A DNA stretch of 64,000 bases from the NCBI GenBank assembly GCA_021324655.1, contig JAJPIP010000029.1, forward strand, positions 1 to 64,000, written 5' to 3'. Positions 1 through 8,333 of the stretch are shown one piece after another. Within the stretch, counting starts at the first letter, position 1; each line of letters opens with the position of its first letter. The translations under genes and the position numbers were made by a program. The notes beneath the pieces were generated by a model. It saw nothing but the letters and a program-made list of their open reading frames with translations, was not told the DNA's origin and did not search any database. The DNA is from Pseudomonadota bacterium (GTDB lineage: Bacteria > Chloroflexota > UBA5177).

Positions 1-764
1 CGCGCTGGACGGTGCGTCAGATCGTGTCTCACCTCGCCGGGGCGACCGCAATCTTCGACGATCGAGACCGTGCGGTGGCGAGAAGTGAGTCCTGGCTGCA
101 AGGAAAGGCGGACGAGCCCGGCCAGACGATGGCGGCATATCTCGCCGACCTGGCCGGCGTGTCCGCCGAGCGCCGTCGGACCTACCGCGAAGCGGGCTTC
201 AACCCACTCGATACGCTTACTCAGTTCCAGGTCGACGAGCGTGCCCAGGCAGCGCCGGCGGAGCTCATCGCCGAGCTCCGGACGTCAGGATTAACCGCCA
301 TCGCCAACCGGCGACAGCTACCGGAAACACTACGTTCCCTCCAGCTGCCCATCGGGAGCGGCGTCAGAGTGCCCCTGCACTTCTTTGTCGACGTCATCCT
401 GCCCCGCGACATGTGGATGCACCGCATGGAAATCGCCCTCGCCACGGATCGTGAGATCGTTCGGACCCCCCAGCACGAAGGACGGCTGACGGCCCTGGTG
501 ATGCGGGATCTGGCGCGGCGCCTCGCTCCCGTCCTGGGCGACGAGTCCGTCACCTACCACCTCACTGGCCCCGATGGCGGCGCGTTCCAGTTCGGTCCGT
601 ACGGCGAGCCCGGTACCACGCTGACGATGGATACGGTCGATTTCCACCTGCTCGCGTCCGGCCGTCTAACGCCCGATGACGCACTGGCGCGTTCCGTCGT
701 GACGGTCAATGGCGATGAGGCGCTGGCCAGCCGCATCCTCGCCCAGACCAGCGTCTCGTACTGA
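1..764 (+). CDS. Maleylpyruvate isomerase family (DinB-like) protein, 5' partial
   Basis: The frame is open from the first base (..RWTVRQIVSHLAG), so the gene starts upstream of the window; the GTG at 12 is internal. The W-T-V-R-x-I-x-x-H-L-A-G stretch is the first helix motif of the mycothiol-dependent maleylpyruvate isomerase N-terminal domain (TIGR03083/DinB superfamily), where the His is one of the metal ligands. The remaining ~240 residues are helical, with an SCP2-like C-terminal half (TYHLTGPDGGAFQFG, then VVTVNGDEALASRIL). Family members are thiol-dependent transferases or isomerases; the substrate here cannot be inferred. The gene ends 23 bp before the first SARP-type promoter box. 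Family assignment is fairly sure, enzymatic role unknown. Confidence 0.75.
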   Translation, partial: RWTVRQIVSHLAGATAIFDDRDRAVARSESWLQGKADEPGQTMAAYLADLAGVSAERRRTYREAGFNPLDTLTQFQVDERAQAAPAELIAELRTSGLTAIANRRQLPETLRSLQLPIGSGVRVPLHFFVDVILPRDMWMHRMEIALATDREIVRTPQHEGRLTALVMRDLARRLAPVLGDESVTYHLTGPDGGAFQFGPYGEPGTTLTMDTVDFHLLASGRLTPDDALARSVVTVNGDEALASRILAQTSVSY

Positions 765-786
765 GAGATCCGACGTCCATCCTCTT

Positions 787-819
787 GCTAAGGATGCGCT
801 AAGAGCGGACACGTACGAT
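787..819 (+). promoter_or_regulatory. SARP-type activator box and promoter 1
   Basis: Two GCTAAG hexamers (787-792 and 798-803) are direct repeats exactly 11 bp apart, followed after 10 bp by TACGAT (814-819), a plausible -10. No -35 hexamer is present. Direct repeats on an 11-bp period replacing the -35 region are the known promoter architecture of SARP (OmpR-type winged helix plus BTAD) activators. The same arrangement recurs at 5422-5454, and a SARP-type regulator lies between the two. It would drive the oxidoreductase at 896. Regulator-site pairing is inference. Confidence 0.65.
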
Positions 820-895
820 CGTCACATCGCCGGGCATCGAGCCCAGCGCGGTCATCGTGACCACCTCGAAACCCACGGTCGAACAGGAGAGTTTT

Positions 896-2308
896 GTGAC
901 GATCGACAGCACCTTCCGTGGCCCCGACCTCGGCACCAGCCTCGATATGCTCGCCGCCGCCCTCGACGGCGAGGTCATCCTGCCCGCCCACGGCGCGTAC
1001 CACGCGGCCCGCCGTGTGCTCGACGCCCAGTACGACTGCCATCCCGCCGCCATAGTCCGGCCGGCCAACGCCAGGGATGTGATCAGCGCCGTCAACTTCA
1101 CCCGCGAGCTCGGCCTGGAACTGGCCGTCCGCAGCGGCGGGCATAGCCCGGCCGGCTTTAGCACGTGTGACGGGGGGTTGATCCTCGATCTCTCGTCGCT
1201 CAAGGCGATCGACCTCGACCTTGAGGCCGGCACCGTCCGCGTCGAACCGGGTGCAACGTGGGGGGAGGTGGCAGCGGCGCTGCATCCCCACGGCCTGGCC
1301 ATCACCTCGGGTGACTTCGGCTCGGTTGGTGTTGGCGGCCTCACCACCGGCGGCGGGATCGGCTGGATGGTCCGCAAATACGGCCTGACCATCGATCGTC
1401 TGTTGGCCGCCGATGTCGTGCTGGCCGATGGCAGTCTGGTCCGGACGGACGCTGATCACGATCCTGATCTCTTCTGGGCCATCCGTGGCGGCGGTGGCAA
1501 CTTCGGCGTGGTGGTGTCCTTCCTGTTCCGCCCTCACCCGGCCGGCATGGTCACCGGGGGCATGATCGTCTACGACGGTGCCGACCTGCCTCGCGTCGTG
1601 CGTGGGTTCGCCGACTACGGCGTCACGGCACCGGATGAGCTGACCGCCATGGTGGACATCATGCATGCCCCGCCGCTGCCCTTCCTGCCGCCGGAGCGCC
1701 ATGGTTCCCTCATCGTCGGCGTGGCCGTCTGCTACGCCGGCGATCCCGAGGCGGCCGCGCAGGCCATTGCTCCCCTGCGGTCCCTCGCCACACCGCTGGC
1801 CGAGGCGGTTGGTCCCATGCCGTACCCTGCCCTGTTCGCCTTTACCGATCACGCCCTGCCGCCCGCTCCTCACATCGACATCCGCTCCTGTTTCCTGGGC
1901 GACATCGACGACGCGCTGATCGCGACGCTCGTGGAGCGCACCGCCGCTCTCTCTTCCCCCCTGTCCATGGTCCAGCTCCGCGCCCTGGGCGGGGAGTTGA
2001 GCCGGACGCCGGCTGATTCCACCGCTTTCTCGCATCGCGCGGCGCCCTACCTGGTCGAGGCGATCAGCATCTGGACAGACCCGGCTGAGTCCGCGATGCA
2101 CCACGCCAACGCGGACGGATTCTGGGACGATCTCGCCTCGCACGCGGAGGGTACCTATGTCGGGTTCCTCGGAAACGAGGGCGAGGAACGCAAGCGCTCC
2201 GCCTATGCTCCGGGGACCTACCGGCGCCTCGCCGCGATCAAGGCCGTCTACGATCCCCATAACCTGTTCCGCCGCAACCACAACATCGCACCTCTGCCGG
2301 CCGTCTAA
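896..2308 (+). CDS. FAD-binding (BBE-type) flavin-histidyl oxidoreductase
   Basis: A 470-residue vanillyl-alcohol-oxidase/berberine-bridge fold enzyme that oxidises an unknown alcohol, amine or sugar with O2 through a covalently bound FAD. The N-terminal FAD_binding_4 domain carries R-S-G-G-H-S with His83 as the expected 8-alpha-histidyl-FAD residue, plus TTGGGIGWMVRKYGL and RGGGGNFGVV. The second attachment Cys of bicovalent members is absent (SGDFGSVGVGG), so monocovalent FAD is expected. The C-terminus has the BBE motif (YDPHNLFRRNHNI). Start chosen at GTG 896 because AGGAGA (885-890) lies 5 nt upstream; an in-frame GTG at 857 has no ribosome site. It lies downstream of the SARP-type box at 787-819. 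Confidence 0.9.
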   Translation: MTIDSTFRGPDLGTSLDMLAAALDGEVILPAHGAYHAARRVLDAQYDCHPAAIVRPANARDVISAVNFTRELGLELAVRSGGHSPAGFSTCDGGLILDLSSLKAIDLDLEAGTVRVEPGATWGEVAAALHPHGLAITSGDFGSVGVGGLTTGGGIGWMVRKYGLTIDRLLAADVVLADGSLVRTDADHDPDLFWAIRGGGGNFGVVVSFLFRPHPAGMVTGGMIVYDGADLPRVVRGFADYGVTAPDELTAMVDIMHAPPLPFLPPERHGSLIVGVAVCYAGDPEAAAQAIAPLRSLATPLAEAVGPMPYPALFAFTDHALPPAPHIDIRSCFLGDIDDALIATLVERTAALSSPLSMVQLRALGGELSRTPADSTAFSHRAAPYLVEAISIWTDPAESAMHHANADGFWDDLASHAEGTYVGFLGNEGEERKRSAYAPGTYRRLAAIKAVYDPHNLFRRNHNIAPLPAV

Positions 2309-2340
2309 CCGGCGCGTCGGGGAGAACTGAGCCAACGGAG

Positions 2341-2383
2341 CGCCCCGCGCGGCCGGCATATGTCTCGCCGGCCGCGCGGGGCG
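2341..2383 (+). terminator. Strong GC hairpin after the oxidoreductase gene
   Basis: A perfect 17-bp stem (2341-2357 with 2367-2383) and 9-nt loop starts 33 bp after the oxidoreductase stop. There is no clear T tract after it (acgctcgttatg), so it may terminate inefficiently or simply protect the 3' end. It separates the oxidoreductase transcript from the regulator promoter. Confidence 0.6.
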
Positions 2384-2460
2384 ACGCTCGTTATGTGTCC
2401 GCACGGCACTGTCACCACCGGGGGATGGCAACTTCCTTAGGCAATTCCAGCCGGCAAGCG

Positions 2461-2466
2461 TACGAT
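2461..2466 (+). promoter_or_regulatory. Candidate -10 (TACGAT) of the SARP regulator gene
   Basis: TACGAT lies 33 bp upstream of the ATG at 2500 and is identical to the -10 in the SARP box at 814-819. No GCTAAG repeats lie at the equivalent upstream positions, so the regulator does not obviously activate itself. Confidence 0.35.
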
Positions 2467-2499
2467 AAACAATAGACCCATCGCGAAGGCAGTTGTCGC

Positions 2500-5358
2500 A
2501 TGGAGGCACGCCCGGCCCCACTCCACATCGATCTGCTCGGTGGCTTCCGCGTCCGCGTCGGACATCATGTCGTCCCCGATTCCGCCTGGCGGCTCAGCAA
2601 GGCGCGCACGCTCCTGAAAGTACTCGCTCTGGCCCACGGGCACCGTTTGTCTCGGGATCAGGCGCTCGATCTGCTCTGGCCGGACCTCGCGCCCGAGGCG
2701 GCCGCCAATAACCTCTATGGGGTGCTGCATGGAGTGCGGCGCGTCCTGCGCACCGGTGACGGGGAGGCCGAACTCCGCTTCCAGCACGGCCTCCTATCGC
2801 TCCAGCCGGAGGGGCCGCTACACATCGACGTGGACGCCTTCGAGACAGCGGCAGCCCGCGCGCAGGGGTCGAACGACCCGGCCCTCTACTACGCGGCGCT
2901 CAGCCGCTACAGCGGCGACCTTCTCCCCGATGATCTGTACGAGGACTGGGCCGCGGAGCGTCGCGAGGCGCTCCGTGAGATCCACCTCGGCCTGTTGGTG
3001 GCGGTGGCGCGCCGGCACGAAGCCCGGGGCGAGCTCAAGGCGGCGATGGAGGCGCTGCGGCGTGTGATCCAGAGCGAACGCACCCATGAGGAGGCGCATC
3101 AGGAGCTGATGCGCCTCTACGCCTCCACCGGGCAGCGGGATCGTGCCCTGCGCCAATTCGCCCAGCTGCAGGACATCCTGCGTGATGAGCTGGAGGCGGA
3201 GCCGGACGCCGGCGCCGAAGATCTCTACCGAGCGATCCGTGCCGGGCATTTCGCCGGCGCGGAACCGGCCGAGCCCAGCACGCCGCAGCACAATCTGTCC
3301 CTCCCCCTCACGAGCTTTGTGGGACGGGAACAGGAGCTCGCCGAGATCAAGAGCGTGCTGGCCACGACCCGCCTCCTGACTTTGACCGGCCTGGGCGGCG
3401 TGGGAAAGACCCGGCTCGCCCTGCGCGCTGCCTGGGATCTGCTGGGCTCGTACCGTGACGGCATCTGGTTCGTCCCTCTCGCCTCCGTGGCCGACGGCGC
3501 GCGGCTGCCGGAGGTGGTGGCACAGACCTTACCGTTCGTGGAGCACTCGGGGATGGTGGTGACCGAGGCGCTGATGGATGTACTGCGGGAACGGCAGATC
3601 CTCCTCATCCTCGACAATTGCGAGCACCTTGGCATGGCGCCGGCCCAGCTCGCCGGTGCGCTGCTCGGGGCATGCGCTGACCTGCAGATCATTGCCACGA
3701 GCCGAGCGCGGCTGGGAGTGCCGGGGGAAATGCTCTTCCCGGTGGGTCCGCTCGCTACGTCCCCGCTCCCCACGCCCGAGGCGGTGGCGTCCTCCGATGC
3801 CGTCCGCCTTTTCGCGGAGCGGGCGCGCTTCCGACGTCCCGGCTTCACCCTCACCGCCGCGACCGTAGGGGACGTGGCGGAGATCTGCCACCGGGTGGAG
3901 GGCATTCCCCTCGCGATCGAACTGGCGGCGGCACGCGCCGGGGCCTTCTCGCTCGAGGAGATCGCTGCCCGTCTTGCCGACGCGCCGGGCTTCCTCTCGT
4001 CCGGCGACAGTCTCGAGGAGCGCCACAGCACGCTGGATGCGGTGCTCAACTGGAGCTACCACCTCCTCGACCCCCCTGAAGCGCGCCTCTTCCGCCGTCT
4101 CTCCGTCTTCCGCGGCGGCTGGACACTGGAGGCCGCGGAAGCGATCGGCGAGGAGGGGACGGAGCCTGCCGTCGTACTGGAGCAGTTGTCCCGCCTCATC
4201 GACAAATCGCTGGTGACGGTGCGGATGGAGGGACCGGATGCCGCGCGCTACCGGCTGCCGGAGCCGGTCCGCCAATACGCGGCCCGCCGACTCGCCGAGG
4301 ACGGGGAAGAGGAGGCAATCCACCGCCGGCACGCCGTCCTCTTTGCCGCCCTTGCGCAGCAGGCGGAGCCCGAGCTCGTCGGACCGGATCAGGTGCGCTG
4401 GATTCGGCGGCTCGATGCCGATCATGACAACCTGCGCGCCGCACTGCGCTGGGCGATCGACCGAGGTGAGGCTGATCTGGCCTTCAGCCTCGGCGCTCAC
4501 CTGTGGTGGTTCTGGTATCTGCAGAGCCATCTGGCCGAGGGGCGAGAGTGGTTGGACTCCCTGCTCCAACTGGAGGGGGGAAACGACGACGATCGAGCGG
4601 CGGTGCTGCGCGGTGCGGGCTCCCTCGCCTATGCCCAGCGGCAGTACGACACGGCGCTGCACGACATCGAGCGATCACTCGCCCTCTATCGGCAGGCCAG
4701 CAACCGGCCCCGGGAAGCCTCCTGTCTGAACACCATCGCCGTCATTCTGGCGGAAAAGAGGGACTACAGCGGGGCGCGCCGGTACCACGAGGAGTCGCTG
4801 GCAATCCGACGTGAGCTCGGGGACAAGGACGGGGTCGCCGTCTCACTCAGCAACCTCGGCGTGCTCGCCTACTGGGAAGGTGACTACGCCCGCGCCGACG
4901 CCCTGTGGGAGGAATGCATCGCGCTGAATCGGGAGCTGGGGGATACGACGAGTCTGGCGATCGCCCTGAGTAACGTGGGCTCCCTCGCCCTGGGACTGGG
5001 GCAGTACGAGCGGGCCGTACCTCCCCTCGCCGAAGCACTGGAACTCTCTCGGGCAATTGACGAGCGGGAGATCCTTACCGCATGCCTGGACGGACTGGCA
5101 GAGGTCGTGCTGTGGCGCGGTGACGCGCGCCGCGCGGCCATAATCCACGGCGCCGCGGACGCACTACGCGCCGCCGTGGGCCACCCGCTTCGGCCGTCTG
5201 ACCAGGCAGACCACGACGCGGCCATCGGTCGGACCCGCGCCGCGCTGGGGAGTGAGGCCTTCGCCGCCGCCTGGGCAGAGGGTCAGACCGCCGGTCTCGA
5301 TGAGATCATCGGCTACGCGCTACGGGGAGAGGGCTCCTCACCCCGGATCACCGTATAA
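2500..5358 (+). CDS. AfsR/SARP-type transcriptional regulator (wHTH-BTAD-NB-ARC-TPR)
   Basis: A 952-residue STAND-class regulator. Residues ~5-100 form the OmpR-like winged helix (LLGGFRVRVG.., LSRDQALDLLWPDLAPEAAANNL). Residues ~105-245 are the bacterial transcriptional activator domain (THEEAHQELMRLYASTGQRD). An NB-ARC ATPase follows with Walker A GLGGVGKTR near residue 297 and Walker B LLILDNCEHL near 370. The C-terminal third is tetratricopeptide repeats (YSGARRYHEESLAI, YARADALWEECIAL). Such proteins hold the DNA-binding part inactive until ATP and a signal release it. GAAGG 10 nt before ATG 2500 serves as ribosome site. The GCTAAG boxes on both sides (787, 5422) are the expected kind of target, suggesting a local regulon. 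The signal is unknown. Confidence 0.92.
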   Translation: MEARPAPLHIDLLGGFRVRVGHHVVPDSAWRLSKARTLLKVLALAHGHRLSRDQALDLLWPDLAPEAAANNLYGVLHGVRRVLRTGDGEAELRFQHGLLSLQPEGPLHIDVDAFETAAARAQGSNDPALYYAALSRYSGDLLPDDLYEDWAAERREALREIHLGLLVAVARRHEARGELKAAMEALRRVIQSERTHEEAHQELMRLYASTGQRDRALRQFAQLQDILRDELEAEPDAGAEDLYRAIRAGHFAGAEPAEPSTPQHNLSLPLTSFVGREQELAEIKSVLATTRLLTLTGLGGVGKTRLALRAAWDLLGSYRDGIWFVPLASVADGARLPEVVAQTLPFVEHSGMVVTEALMDVLRERQILLILDNCEHLGMAPAQLAGALLGACADLQIIATSRARLGVPGEMLFPVGPLATSPLPTPEAVASSDAVRLFAERARFRRPGFTLTAATVGDVAEICHRVEGIPLAIELAAARAGAFSLEEIAARLADAPGFLSSGDSLEERHSTLDAVLNWSYHLLDPPEARLFRRLSVFRGGWTLEAAEAIGEEGTEPAVVLEQLSRLIDKSLVTVRMEGPDAARYRLPEPVRQYAARRLAEDGEEEAIHRRHAVLFAALAQQAEPELVGPDQVRWIRRLDADHDNLRAALRWAIDRGEADLAFSLGAHLWWFWYLQSHLAEGREWLDSLLQLEGGNDDDRAAVLRGAGSLAYAQRQYDTALHDIERSLALYRQASNRPREASCLNTIAVILAEKRDYSGARRYHEESLAIRRELGDKDGVAVSLSNLGVLAYWEGDYARADALWEECIALNRELGDTTSLAIALSNVGSLALGLGQYERAVPPLAEALELSRAIDEREILTACLDGLAEVVLWRGDARRAAIIHGAADALRAAVGHPLRPSDQADHDAAIGRTRAALGSEAFAAAWAEGQTAGLDEIIGYALRGEGSSPRITV

Positions 5359-5421
5359 AGACGGTTACCGCGGTGAGTGCGCTCGCCGGCCTGGATCACA
5401 CCACGGACATGCCGACGTCAC

Positions 5422-5454
5422 GCTAAGAGTCCGCTAAGACCGACTCGGTACGCT
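5422..5454 (+). promoter_or_regulatory. SARP-type activator box and promoter 2
   Basis: GCTAAG at 5422-5427 and 5433-5438 (11-bp period) is followed after 10 bp by TACGCT (5449-5454). Repeat, spacer and -10 geometry are identical to the box at 787-819, but the flanking sequence differs, which argues for function rather than recent duplication. The predicted transcript starts at about 5461, essentially on the ATG at 5462. Confidence 0.65.
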
Positions 5455-5461
5455 GCTCCCG

Positions 5462-5668
5462 ATGACCGCGGCTGAGACCGCTGAAAGGGAGCCGATGCTC
5501 ACCCATCGGGGCACATACGTGATCCGGTTCTGGACCTCCGGCAAGGAGATCTGCCGCATCGAAGTCGTCCACGTCCAGACGGGTGAGCGCGCCGTCCTGC
5601 GCTCAACTGCCGATGCGCTGGCCTGGATCGATCGGCGCAGCCAACAGGGTCATACGAACGGTCCGTGA
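5462..5668 (+). CDS. Small conserved-looking protein under SARP-type box 2
   Basis: A 68-residue protein with a compact beta-rich core (GTYVIRFWTSGKEICRIEVV followed by HVQTGERAVLRSTADALAWID). I do not recognise a family. Two starts are possible: ATG 5462, which would be leaderless because the predicted transcript start coincides with it, or ATG 5495, preceded by GAAAGGGA (5483-5490). The conserved core begins right after the second ATG. It is first in a unit with the cupredoxin gene 73 bp downstream. No signal peptide or metal ligands stand out beyond one Cys. Confidence 0.6.
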   Translation: MTAAETAEREPMLTHRGTYVIRFWTSGKEICRIEVVHVQTGERAVLRSTADALAWIDRRSQQGHTNGP

Positions 5669-5741
5669 AAGGAGGCATGGAGGAGCCTGCGCGTTTCGTC
5701 CCCTACCAAGACATCAACCCATCATCACGGAAAGGACCACT

Positions 5742-6647
5742 ATGAAACACATCCTGGTCGCCTCGCTCGCGGCCGTCGCCGTCTGCACCGTCCTTCTCGC
5801 GCCGTCACTGGGGCACGCCTCCAGCCCGCACCGCGCCCCGTCCTCCTCGCCCGTCCACCACTACGTGATCACCGCGGGCTGGGGCGACGATGACTACGCC
5901 GCAAACGTCTACACTCCCTCCACCCTGCACATTTACGCCGGTGACTCCGTCACATGGCGGGTGCGCGAGCGCCTCGAGCCGCACACCGTATCGTTTGGCC
6001 CGATGGCGCTGCTGGGGCAGCTCGCCAAGAACAGCGTCAATGTCGTCCCGCAGCCGAACGGTCCCCCGCAATTCGAGCTGAATCCCCAGGCTGCCTTCCC
6101 GACGCGGTCGAATCAAGTCAGCGGCGCCGGCTTCGTGAATTCCGGACTGCTGCGGAAGGGGCAGAGCTGGACCGCCGTGTTCCCGCGGCCCGGTGTCTAC
6201 CATTATTACTGCCTGCTGCACTTCCCCGGCATGACCGGTACGGTCGTCGTCCTTCCGCGAACGAACACTCCCACCGTGGAAACCGGCTACGGGACGGATC
6301 GGAGCGCGGTAGACGCCTACTTCCCGGAGAACCTGACGATCAAGGTCGGGACGACTGTAACCTGGTCACCGGGCTTCCACACCGTCACCTTTGCTCCGAT
6401 GGCGGAGGTGCACTCGCTGCGCCGGCACTTCATCGTGCCGGTCCGCCAATCGAACGGCACGACGGCGCTGGCCCTGAACCCCCGGGTTGCTCTCCCCAGT
6501 GGCGGCAAGACCTATACGGGGGGCTTCTGGAACTCTGGACTTCTCGTGCAGGGTCCGGTCAGCCTAACCTTCCCCAAGCCAGGGGTGTACCACTACCACT
6601 GCCTCGTCCATCCCGGGATGGACGGCACCATCACTGTCAAACCCTAA
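5742..6647 (+). CDS. Secreted tandem cupredoxin (two plastocyanin-like domains)
   Basis: A 301-residue exported protein. The signal peptide (MKHILVASLAAVAVCTVLLA) has a probable cleavage after GHA. Two plastocyanin/amicyanin-type domains follow. Domain 1 has its first His in EPHTVSFGP and the C-x2-H-x3-M cluster in YYCLLHFPGM. Domain 2 has FHTVTFAP and YHCLVHPGM. Both therefore keep complete type-1 copper ligand sets, so two electron-transfer or copper-binding sites are predicted outside the membrane. Start at ATG 5742 is chosen for GGAAAGGA (5729-5736) and the signal peptide; the frame is open upstream to 5583 but overlaps the small gene. It sits in the putative SARP-controlled unit with a YtkA-like gene downstream. 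Confidence 0.9.
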   Translation: MKHILVASLAAVAVCTVLLAPSLGHASSPHRAPSSSPVHHYVITAGWGDDDYAANVYTPSTLHIYAGDSVTWRVRERLEPHTVSFGPMALLGQLAKNSVNVVPQPNGPPQFELNPQAAFPTRSNQVSGAGFVNSGLLRKGQSWTAVFPRPGVYHYYCLLHFPGMTGTVVVLPRTNTPTVETGYGTDRSAVDAYFPENLTIKVGTTVTWSPGFHTVTFAPMAEVHSLRRHFIVPVRQSNGTTALALNPRVALPSGGKTYTGGFWNSGLLVQGPVSLTFPKPGVYHYHCLVHPGMDGTITVKP

Positions 6648-6652
6648 CCCAA

Positions 6653-6680
6653 AGGGGCGGGCGGCGCGCCGCCCGCCCCT
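6653..6680. repeat. Perfect 28-bp palindrome between cupredoxin and YtkA-like genes
   Basis: A fully self-complementary G/C sequence (14-bp arms, no loop) begins 5 bp after the cupredoxin stop. No T tract follows on either strand, and the GGAG ribosome site of the next gene begins just beyond it. As RNA it would form a very stable hairpin that could attenuate or stabilise the upstream message and change the ratio of the two proteins. Confidence 0.6.
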
Positions 6681-6693
6681 CCCGGAGATCATC

Positions 6694-7134
6694 ATGCGCC
6701 ACATCATCGTTCTCGGTTGCTTCCTGCTGGGTATCCCCGCTGCGCTGTCCGTGGGCCGGGCACTTGCCTCGCACCACCCGGCACACCACGCCGTCGGCAT
6801 CGACTCTCGTCTGCTGCTGGTGCCGCGTACATTGACGGTCACCGCTTCGCTGTCCGGAGCCTCCGCGGCCCACCTCCGGATCTCCCCTGCCATCCCGGGC
6901 GTGCAGCGCATCTCCCTGCGTCTGCCCGCGCGCATCCATCCCGCCGGGATCCTCCTGCGCGCTCGGATGTCCGGGATGCAGATGACGCCTACGGTGGGCC
7001 GGCTCGGGCGCCGGAACGGCGTTTACGTGGGACAGCTCAGACTCCCCATGTTCGGCACGTACCGCGTGGCGATCGAGCTGCCGCAGCGCCCGCCGGTCAC
7101 CGTTCGGGTCACCCTGCCACTCCCGGGACAGTAA
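6694..7134 (+). CDS. Secreted YtkA/FixH-like protein
   Basis: A 146-residue protein with an N-terminal export signal (MRHIIVLGCFLLGIPAALSV) and a single immunoglobulin-like beta domain. The M-S-G-M-Q-M cluster followed by NGVYVGQLRLPMFGTYRVAIEL matches the layout of YtkA-like/FixH-like domains, where Met-rich strands and a final G-x-Y/W strand are typical; such domains are linked to copper handling and oxidase assembly. Start ATG 6694 has GGAG 5-8 nt upstream. Its place right after a tandem cupredoxin supports a periplasmic or extracellular copper role. No transmembrane partner oxidase is present. Family call moderate, function inferred. Confidence 0.6.
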   Translation: MRHIIVLGCFLLGIPAALSVGRALASHHPAHHAVGIDSRLLLVPRTLTVTASLSGASAAHLRISPAIPGVQRISLRLPARIHPAGILLRARMSGMQMTPTVGRLGRRNGVYVGQLRLPMFGTYRVAIELPQRPPVTVRVTLPLPGQ

Positions 7135-7330
7135 TGGCGAGTCGCAGCGCTCCTGCCATCCTCTCCGCACCCGTCATAGATGTGGGTCGCTCGCGCCGGC
7201 TCCGGCGGATTCTGAGGGTACTGTGGCTCGCCGAGCGTTGCGGGCAGCCCACAATGTTCACGCGCTACGTGACGGAGGGAGTCATGGGCCCCCCGCTTGC
7301 TCCATAGTGGCAGAGAGAGGAGGAACCAAC

Positions 7331-7720
7331 ATGGAGAAAACACAGATCAATCCCTGGACCTGGCAGGACCAGCGCGGCTTTTCCCAGGCCTGGAAGGTCG
7401 AGGACGGGCGGACCGTCCTCTTCGTCTCCGGTCAGGTGAGCGTCTCGCCGGACGGGCAGCTGATGCATGAGGGAGACTTTCCGGCGCAGGTACGACAGGT
7501 CTTCGAGAACCTGCGCACCGTTCTGGAGGCAGCGGGCGCCTCGCTGCAGGATGTCGTGAAGGTGGGGGTATTCCTGACCGACATGGGCCGCCTTCCCGAG
7601 TACAGCCGAATCAAGGCGGAGTTCATTTCGGGGAAGCAGCCGGCCTCGACGGCGGTTGGCGTGACGGCACTGGCTGTACCCGGCCTGATGATCGAAGTCG
7701 AAGCGATCGCGGTGCTTTAG
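7331..7720 (+). CDS. RidA/YjgF/YER057c/UK114 family protein, atypical
   Basis: A 129-residue Rid-family protein. The core (VLFVSGQVSVSPDGQL, ENLRTVLEAAGASLQDVVKVGVFLTDM, IEVEAIAVL) is clear. Archetypal RidA deaminates reactive enamine/imine intermediates using an Arg in a P-A-R-S-type motif. Here the equivalent segment reads QPASTAVGV, with Ser where Arg is expected, so imine deaminase activity is doubtful and a Rid1-7-type subfamily is more likely. Start ATG 7331 follows a strong AGAGGAGGA ribosome site. It is separate from the cupredoxin unit (196-bp gap). Confidence 0.9.
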   Translation: MEKTQINPWTWQDQRGFSQAWKVEDGRTVLFVSGQVSVSPDGQLMHEGDFPAQVRQVFENLRTVLEAAGASLQDVVKVGVFLTDMGRLPEYSRIKAEFISGKQPASTAVGVTALAVPGLMIEVEAIAVL

Positions 7721-7805
7721 TGACCAGCCGCGACGGTGCGAGGGCTCACGCCGAGCTCCTCCGCGGCGTCGAACCGATAGGAGATCAGACCACAAGGAGG
7801 GAGCC

Positions 7806-8333
7806 ATGACGATGAGAATGGCCCGGACGGCACAGGCGGACACCTGGATCGCGGCACCCCCGGAGCGAGTCTGGGAGGTGGTTGGCGACATCGGGCGCGC
7901 CGGCGAATGGAGCGGCGAATCATTGGGATCGGAATGGCTCGACAGCGTGGCAGGGCCCGTGCCCGGTGCACGATTCAAGGGGCGCAACAAGCGGCACCTG
8001 ATGCGCTGGACCAGAGTCAGCCGGGTACTCACCGCCGATCCGCCGCTCGAGTTCGCGTGGGAGACGGAGCCGACGGCCCTCTACCCGGATTCCACGGAGT
8101 GGCACATCCGGCTCGCGCCGGAGTCCGGCGGCACCCGGGTGACGGAAGAGATGCGAATCATAAAGATACCGCGCCCCATGGAGATTGGCATCTACTGGCT
8201 CATCCGGGAGCATCGCGACCGCCATGAGGATCTGGTGCGTGATCTCGAGCGCCTGAAATCCCTGGTCGAGGCGGAGGATCGAGGTGAGACCGGGACCGGC
8301 AACGGCCCCGGTCCCGGAGCGCTCAACGTGTGA
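7806..8333 (+). CDS. SRPBCC (polyketide cyclase/START-like) family protein
   Basis: A 175-residue helix-grip protein. The opening TWIAAPPERVWEVVGDIGRAGEWS is the classic SRPBCC first strand and helix; WHIRLAPESGGTRVTEEMRI forms the central strands; a long C-terminal helix closes the ligand pocket. These proteins bind hydrophobic ligands or act as cyclases; no specific ligand is evident. AAGGAGGG ends 5 nt before ATG 7806. The 3' end overlaps the convergent gene at 8323 by 11 bp, and the tail is low-complexity (GETGTGNGPGPGALNV), created by a GC hairpin at 8290-8317. Confidence 0.85.
   Translation: MTMRMARTAQADTWIAAPPERVWEVVGDIGRAGEWSGESLGSEWLDSVAGPVPGARFKGRNKRHLMRWTRVSRVLTADPPLEFAWETEPTALYPDSTEWHIRLAPESGGTRVTEEMRIIKIPRPMEIGIYWLIREHRDRHEDLVRDLERLKSLVEAEDRGETGTGNGPGPGALNV
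8290..8317. terminator. Hairpin at the convergent gene junction
   Basis: A 10-bp perfect stem (8290-8299 with 8308-8317) and 8-nt loop inside the 3' end of the SRPBCC gene, just before the overlapping stop of the convergent monooxygenase-like gene. It could serve as a bidirectional terminator, but no T run is present on either side. Confidence 0.4.

Follow-up and report, generated by a model that had tools for sequence, protein, structure and literature searches.

A SARP-family regulator between two matched promoter boxes in a Chloroflexota genome and the probable local circuit that it forms

Main finding

The window analyzed here, a 64,000-nucleotide stretch of a Chloroflexota genome, encodes at 2500–5358 a SARP-family regulator with a winged helix, a BTAD, a STAND NTPase and TPR repeats, and the two sides of its gene carry a pair of matched GCTAAG boxes. 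We consider it very probable that regulator and boxes make up a local two-promoter activator circuit, for which DNA binding, activation and ATP control are inferred from AfsR, the antibiotic-switch protein of Streptomyces, and transcript starts are predicted; a known mechanism with a new half-site, in Chloroflexota, is the best reading of the locus. The boxes, their rarity and geometry, the domains and fold of the protein, and the conservation of the half-site beside its closest relative were computed directly. In the proposed circuit, the SARP would read both boxes, which would stand in for the missing -35 elements and bring RNA polymerase with its principal sigma factor to TACGAT and TACGCT, turning on a flavin oxidoreductase gene upstream and a small-protein/cupredoxin operon downstream. 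As in AfsR, the STAND NTPase and TPR would presumably silence the activator as long as no signal or ATP is perceived.

Boxes and promoters

The initial annotation had placed GCTAAG-N5-GCTAAG-N10-TACGNT at 787–819 and 5422–5454, with identical geometry and unlike flanks, and all of this was reproduced, with 0 mismatches at both sites (Table 1). The difference between the flanks excludes a recent duplication, and the boxes were accordingly matched by selection or convergence. If the -10 hexamers are taken as -12 to -7 (predicted starts 826 and 5461), the repeats span -40 to -19, i.e., two direct repeats with an 11-bp period cover the -35 position near a -10, as in a SARP-type box. This predicted register is that of the afs box of AfsR from Streptomyces coelicolor, where a pair of 11-bp direct repeats (-40 to -19) takes over from the -35 (PMC10936776; structures PDB 8HVR, 8K60, and 8JKE). 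The first repeat lies 21 bp and the second 10 bp from the -10, neither of which fits a -35, and a consensus sigma-70 scan of 600–7400 found no ordinary promoter. No Rfam family was present in 1–8000, and no box stands ahead of the regulator gene itself.

With up to 3 mismatches allowed, the window holds these two sites only, against a mean of 0.03 in shuffled sequences, and two sites were reached in 0 of 100 shuffles. The genome-wide search that the initial annotation had called for (3,799,943 bases, 96% complete) returned the exact GCTAAG-N5-GCTAAG-N10-TACGNT twice and the control 0 times, the motif thus not being frequent in random or coding positions. The bare repeat GCTAAG-N5-GCTAAG had no further exact copy in this genome, and its single copy with 1 mismatch (C72:15004) is without a correctly placed -10.

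Table 1. Features of the locus (window coordinates) and GTAACG sites of the source genome (contig coordinates)
Feature	Position	Strand	Basis or remark
Box 1: two GCTAAG half-sites (787–792 and 798–803), 11-bp period	787..803	+	no more than two copies genome-wide
-10 element TACGAT of promoter 1, predicted start ~826, without -35	814..819	+	N10 spacing
FAD-linked oxidoreductase (FAD_binding_4 + BBE), predicted target 1; GTG start, AGGAGA ahead	896..2308	+	Pfam
Perfect 17-bp G+C-rich hairpin, no T-run, between target 1 and regulator	2341..2383	+	fold -61 kcal/mol, z -3.1
SARP-type regulator, 952 aa: winged helix (8–102), BTAD (110–247), STAND/NB-ARC NTPase, TPR	2500..5358	+	
Recognition helix a3, residues 65–83, PEAAANNLYGVLHGVRRVL	2692..2748	+	model helix; profile alignment to AfsR
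Walker A motif GLGGVGKT, STAND NTPase	3388..3411	+	sequence; AAA_16/NB-ARC weak Pfam matches
Box 2: two GCTAAG half-sites (5422–5427 and 5433–5438)	5422..5438	+	64 bp 3' of regulator stop
-10 element TACGCT of promoter 2, predicted start ~5461	5449..5454	+	
Small ORF, 68 aa, no family match	5462..5668	+	
Secreted protein with two cupredoxin domains, predicted target 2	5742..6647	+	Pfam PF00127, E 2.3e-12
Possible YtkA-like secreted protein, end of putative operon 2	6694..7134	+	by position only
GTAACG sites, source genome (G000)	C2:40460, C15:60504, C21:43864, C21:47471, C53:61567, C66:22401, C72:108865		

Putative target genes

Among the gene identities proposed by the initial annotation, the FAD oxidoreductase (PF01565, E 2.5e-34, plus PF08031; the nearest NCBIfam models, BagG/FevA2, being far under cut-off) and the cupredoxin protein were borne out by Pfam, and the YtkA-like call remained weak, PF13115 (E 0.0066) reaching 17.5 bits vs. 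a Pfam cut-off of 25.9. The hairpin behind the oxidoreductase gene is the probable end of transcript 1. On the other side, the end of box 2 is 23 bases ahead of ATG 5462 of the small ORF, which coincides with the predicted transcript start, and a second in-frame ATG (5495) follows a ribosome site (AAAGGGAG); a message begun at ATG 5462 would possibly be leaderless.

The regulator

Both the winged helix and the BTAD that had been ascribed to the protein at 2500 were recovered by Pfam, a structure model, and fold matches. The BTAD (PF03704, E 3.8e-14, residues 110–247) is above cut-off and adjoins the N-terminal winged helix, which is of OmpR type in the model, E-E-E-H-H-H(65–83)-E-E, and gave a weak Pfam Trans_reg_C match (18.1 bits). 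Behind this SARP part come a P-loop NTPase and then TPR repeats (TPR_12, E 4.7e-20), an AfsR-like architecture. The model of residues 1–250 has a mean pLDDT of 85, and its best solved fold matches are AfsR and EmbR, at a TM of about 0.5 only, a low value that probably stems from the uncertain mutual orientation of the two domains in the model. A profile built from the relatives of the regulator matches AfsR over its full length (E 3.8e-22). In the AfsR equivalog test (NCBIfam NF053617), the protein scored 90 bits vs. a cut-off of 1430, so it is no AfsR orthologue, and a search of it for the receiver domain (Response_reg) gave no match, which sets it apart from OmpR/PhoB response regulators.

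Regulator and AfsR share the winged helix, BTAD, STAND NTPase, and TPR, but belong to different phyla, and the predicted targets here are local redox genes, whereas that of AfsR is afsS. In the profile alignment, Y73, G74, H77, G78, R80, and R81 correspond to R87, T88, S91, R92, R94, and K95 of AfsR, in whose complex R94/K95 (and R87) contact the backbone and T88 and R92 contact bases (PMC10936776). The backbone-contacting R94/K95 are kept as R80/R81, while T88/R92 became G74/G78 and R87 became Y73, which would explain why the half-site differs from that of AfsR; scaffold contacts that are kept together with base-reading positions that are changed are what a new half-site requires. EmbR of Mycobacterium tuberculosis (PDB 2FEZ), the second-best kind of fold match, also combines winged helix and BTAD but has an FHA domain where the regulator has NTPase and TPR (PMC10936776). 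Further known systems are the SARP-LAL regulators PimR, SanG, and PolR, with 22-nt boxes of two heptamers and 4-nt spacers and a consensus, CGGCAAG, that has the same AAG end as CGCTAAG here; the main operator of PimR, in contrast, has three heptamers and no -35 overlap, and its targets are antibiotic-cluster regulators (PMC5930380).

The half-site beside relatives

Within the class, the regulator is closest to a protein from another genus (G004:C110, 46% identity), and the intergenic region upstream of that relative contains GGCTAAG-N4-GACTAAG-N10-TATGAT. This box (G004:C110:2135–2150, TATGAT at N10) is in divergent orientation and faces a secreted-protein gene, and no other genes common to the two loci were seen. 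Across seven genomes of the class, CTAAG-N6-CTAAG occurs 5 times vs. 41 for the reversed control: two in the window, one in G004, one in G006, and one in G001 (L334), the last left uncounted as support since its -10 is not in place. The G006 site, which was found by motif, is intergenic, has TAGCAT at N10 and lies ahead of a secreted protein, with no demonstrated orthologous regulator nearby; the secreted proteins behind the G006 and G004 boxes are weakly similar (29%, E 2e-4, a single comparison). CTAAG boxes ahead of secreted proteins of unknown family were noted in two genera (L124/L033, G006:C151:8478–8510; L112:1673–1990). A distant SARP (G308) has CTAAG boxes on each side of its gene. 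No box of this kind was found beside the close relatives L234, L235, L237, and L239, and an orthologue hunt in GTDB contigs gave distant relatives only.

A search of 400 genomes from the phylum found GCTAAG-N5-GCTAAG-N10-TANNNT 5 times vs. once for the reversed-pattern control, and 3 of the 5 matches come from the family of the source genome. The matches in G178 and G287 were set aside as possibly due to chance, with no close orthologue tying either to a regulator.

Boxes with an 11-bp period beside SARP genes

Comparison of gene flanks points to paired boxes beside the regulator gene as a habit of the SARP family. We scanned 41 regions for any exact 6-mer repeat with a period of 8–14 and a spacer of 6–14 before TANNNT; almost every region surrounded a BTAD gene from the class (whose genomes have up to nine such genes), and 3 had been picked by motif. 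The combination of period 11 and spacer 10 held 20 matches and most others about 1, nearly all combinations apart from the period-11 neighbours holding 0–5. The source genome was read in pieces (~1.1 Mb), and the 860 kb scanned gave 7 matches to the same combination, 4 of them near SARP genes. With exact 7-mers in SARP-gene flanks of three sets (the class, the top 40 of the phylum, and the next 60; ~110 SARP-type regulators in all), period 11 was the sole peak, with 9, 11, and 13 matches vs. means of 1.7, 3.2, and 4.2 for the other periods. BTAD response regulators lacked such 7-mers in their flanks, gene interiors showed no enrichment of them, and the intergenic background of the source genome away from SARP genes was 0.14 per kb vs. 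0.32–0.45. Repeats with periods of 9, 12, and 15, which stem from GC-rich codons in coding sequence, were discounted through the comparison of periods.

The box often lies just 3' of the regulator stop on the same strand (in the window and at L115, L127, L130, L238, L256, and L264) and elsewhere just ahead of the regulator start (L108, L112, L116, and L120). Matched pairs that enclose the gene recur at G308 (CTAAG) and on contig C21 of the source genome (GTAACG, 43864 and 47471), where they flank another SARP gene at about C21:44009–47371. Seven GTAACG-N5-GTAACG sites are present in the genome vs. 0 for the control, and most are followed at ~10 bases by a -10-like hexamer, so this sister SARP likely has a regulon of its own.

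Two longer arrays were also noted. Directly behind the SARP gene of L119 (6396–6460), five or six GAAG units follow each other in a row with an 11-bp period, and at G000:C53:28074–28125, three or more CGGTGACTT repeats with 11-bp spacing resemble a PhoB-type box.

Half-site letters and the recognition helix

To judge from alignments and flanks, the letters of the box tend to change with the recognition helix of the SARP. In AfsR numbering, position 87, which was chosen after the first cases had been seen, served to group 52 regulators. With Arg at this position, NNACG was the commonest period-11 repeat of the 64 trinucleotides (14 matches, 11 of 27 regulators, AAG 0); with His, Tyr, or Asn, it was NNAAG (9 matches, 8 of 25 regulators, ACG 3), and the same comparison gave nothing at other periods. 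In a wider set with one box type per regulator, the counts were 16/1 vs. 3/9 (p 2e-4). GAAC-N7-GAAC was found at 11 of 15 regulators with an 'LRK' helix vs. 0 of 94 others; the 15 contain a few entries from one and the same locus or from closely related ones, and they include two betaproteobacterial genomes (L067 and L068) as well as L115, which sits on a separate tree branch. These betaproteobacterial SARP relatives (Rhodoferax, Comamonadaceae) have CAGGAAC-N4-CAGGAAC just upstream.

For 60 held-out regulators, with the prediction written first, the Arg group gave ACG 4 and AAG 0, and the His/Tyr/Asn group AAG 1 and ACG 0 among 24 regulators, most of which form a single subfamily (NRLNG helix) that is redundant and distant and has other repeats; many of these have a C-terminal SARP domain, and the 5' flank was not always covered. 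The overall direction agreed, the AAG half of the rule being unconfirmed in these distant subfamilies. Independent phylogenetic contrasts numbered 2 on well-supported branches and 4–5 on all, with 0 contradicting the rule; the number is too small to reach significance. That SARPs follow a readable code, in which three to four residues of helix a3 (AfsR 87, 88, and 92) determine the half-site and the gene has its box next to it, is a tentative and somewhat doubtful generalization.

Binder of the boxes and direction of regulation

The initial annotation had named the SARP as reader of both boxes, and this gains support from the half-site at the G004:C110 relative (46%) and from boxes of the same geometry and other letters beside SARP genes phylum-wide, where the letters appear to track the recognition helix. 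OmpR/PhoB-type response regulators also bind direct repeats with an 11-bp period near a -10, and because the period is shared, geometry alone cannot name the binder. A response regulator of this type encoded elsewhere might bind the boxes, the SARP gene merely lying between two of its targets, and the Pho-box-like CGGTGACTT triple repeat at C53:28074 indicates that such sites exist in the genome. We think this unlikely, since the only two sites genome-wide are both in the neighbourhood of the regulator, the half-site recurs by the closest relative without another shared gene having been seen, and boxes cluster at SARP genes with letters that track the SARP helix.

Less probable still is that the protein binds the boxes yet represses, or that the boxes act at a step other than replacement of the -35: sequence cannot give the direction of regulation, but both promoters are without a -35, which leaves little to repress, and the repeats lie in the same register as in the AfsR activation complex. 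Coincidental repeats, or an odd -35 of an unrelated sigma-factor promoter, are scarcely credible, for although TACGNT is weak as a -10 and only two sites exist, no shuffle of the 100 produced two, the box is kept beside a relative in another genus, and the repeat spacings do not suit a -35.

Significance

SARPs have been studied almost solely in actinomycetes, and none of the papers in the collection that we searched was about SARPs in Chloroflexota; under the favoured reading, a local circuit activated by the SARP, the window provides one complete pair of regulator and boxes. With flanking boxes as a family habit, the targets of unstudied regulators may be found in the sequence that adjoins their genes. 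The part worth following is the match of helix to half-site, from which boxes could be predicted for many regulators not yet studied, and if the code proved true, the half-sites and local targets of hundreds of uncharacterised SARPs in Chloroflexota and other phyla would be predictable from sequence.
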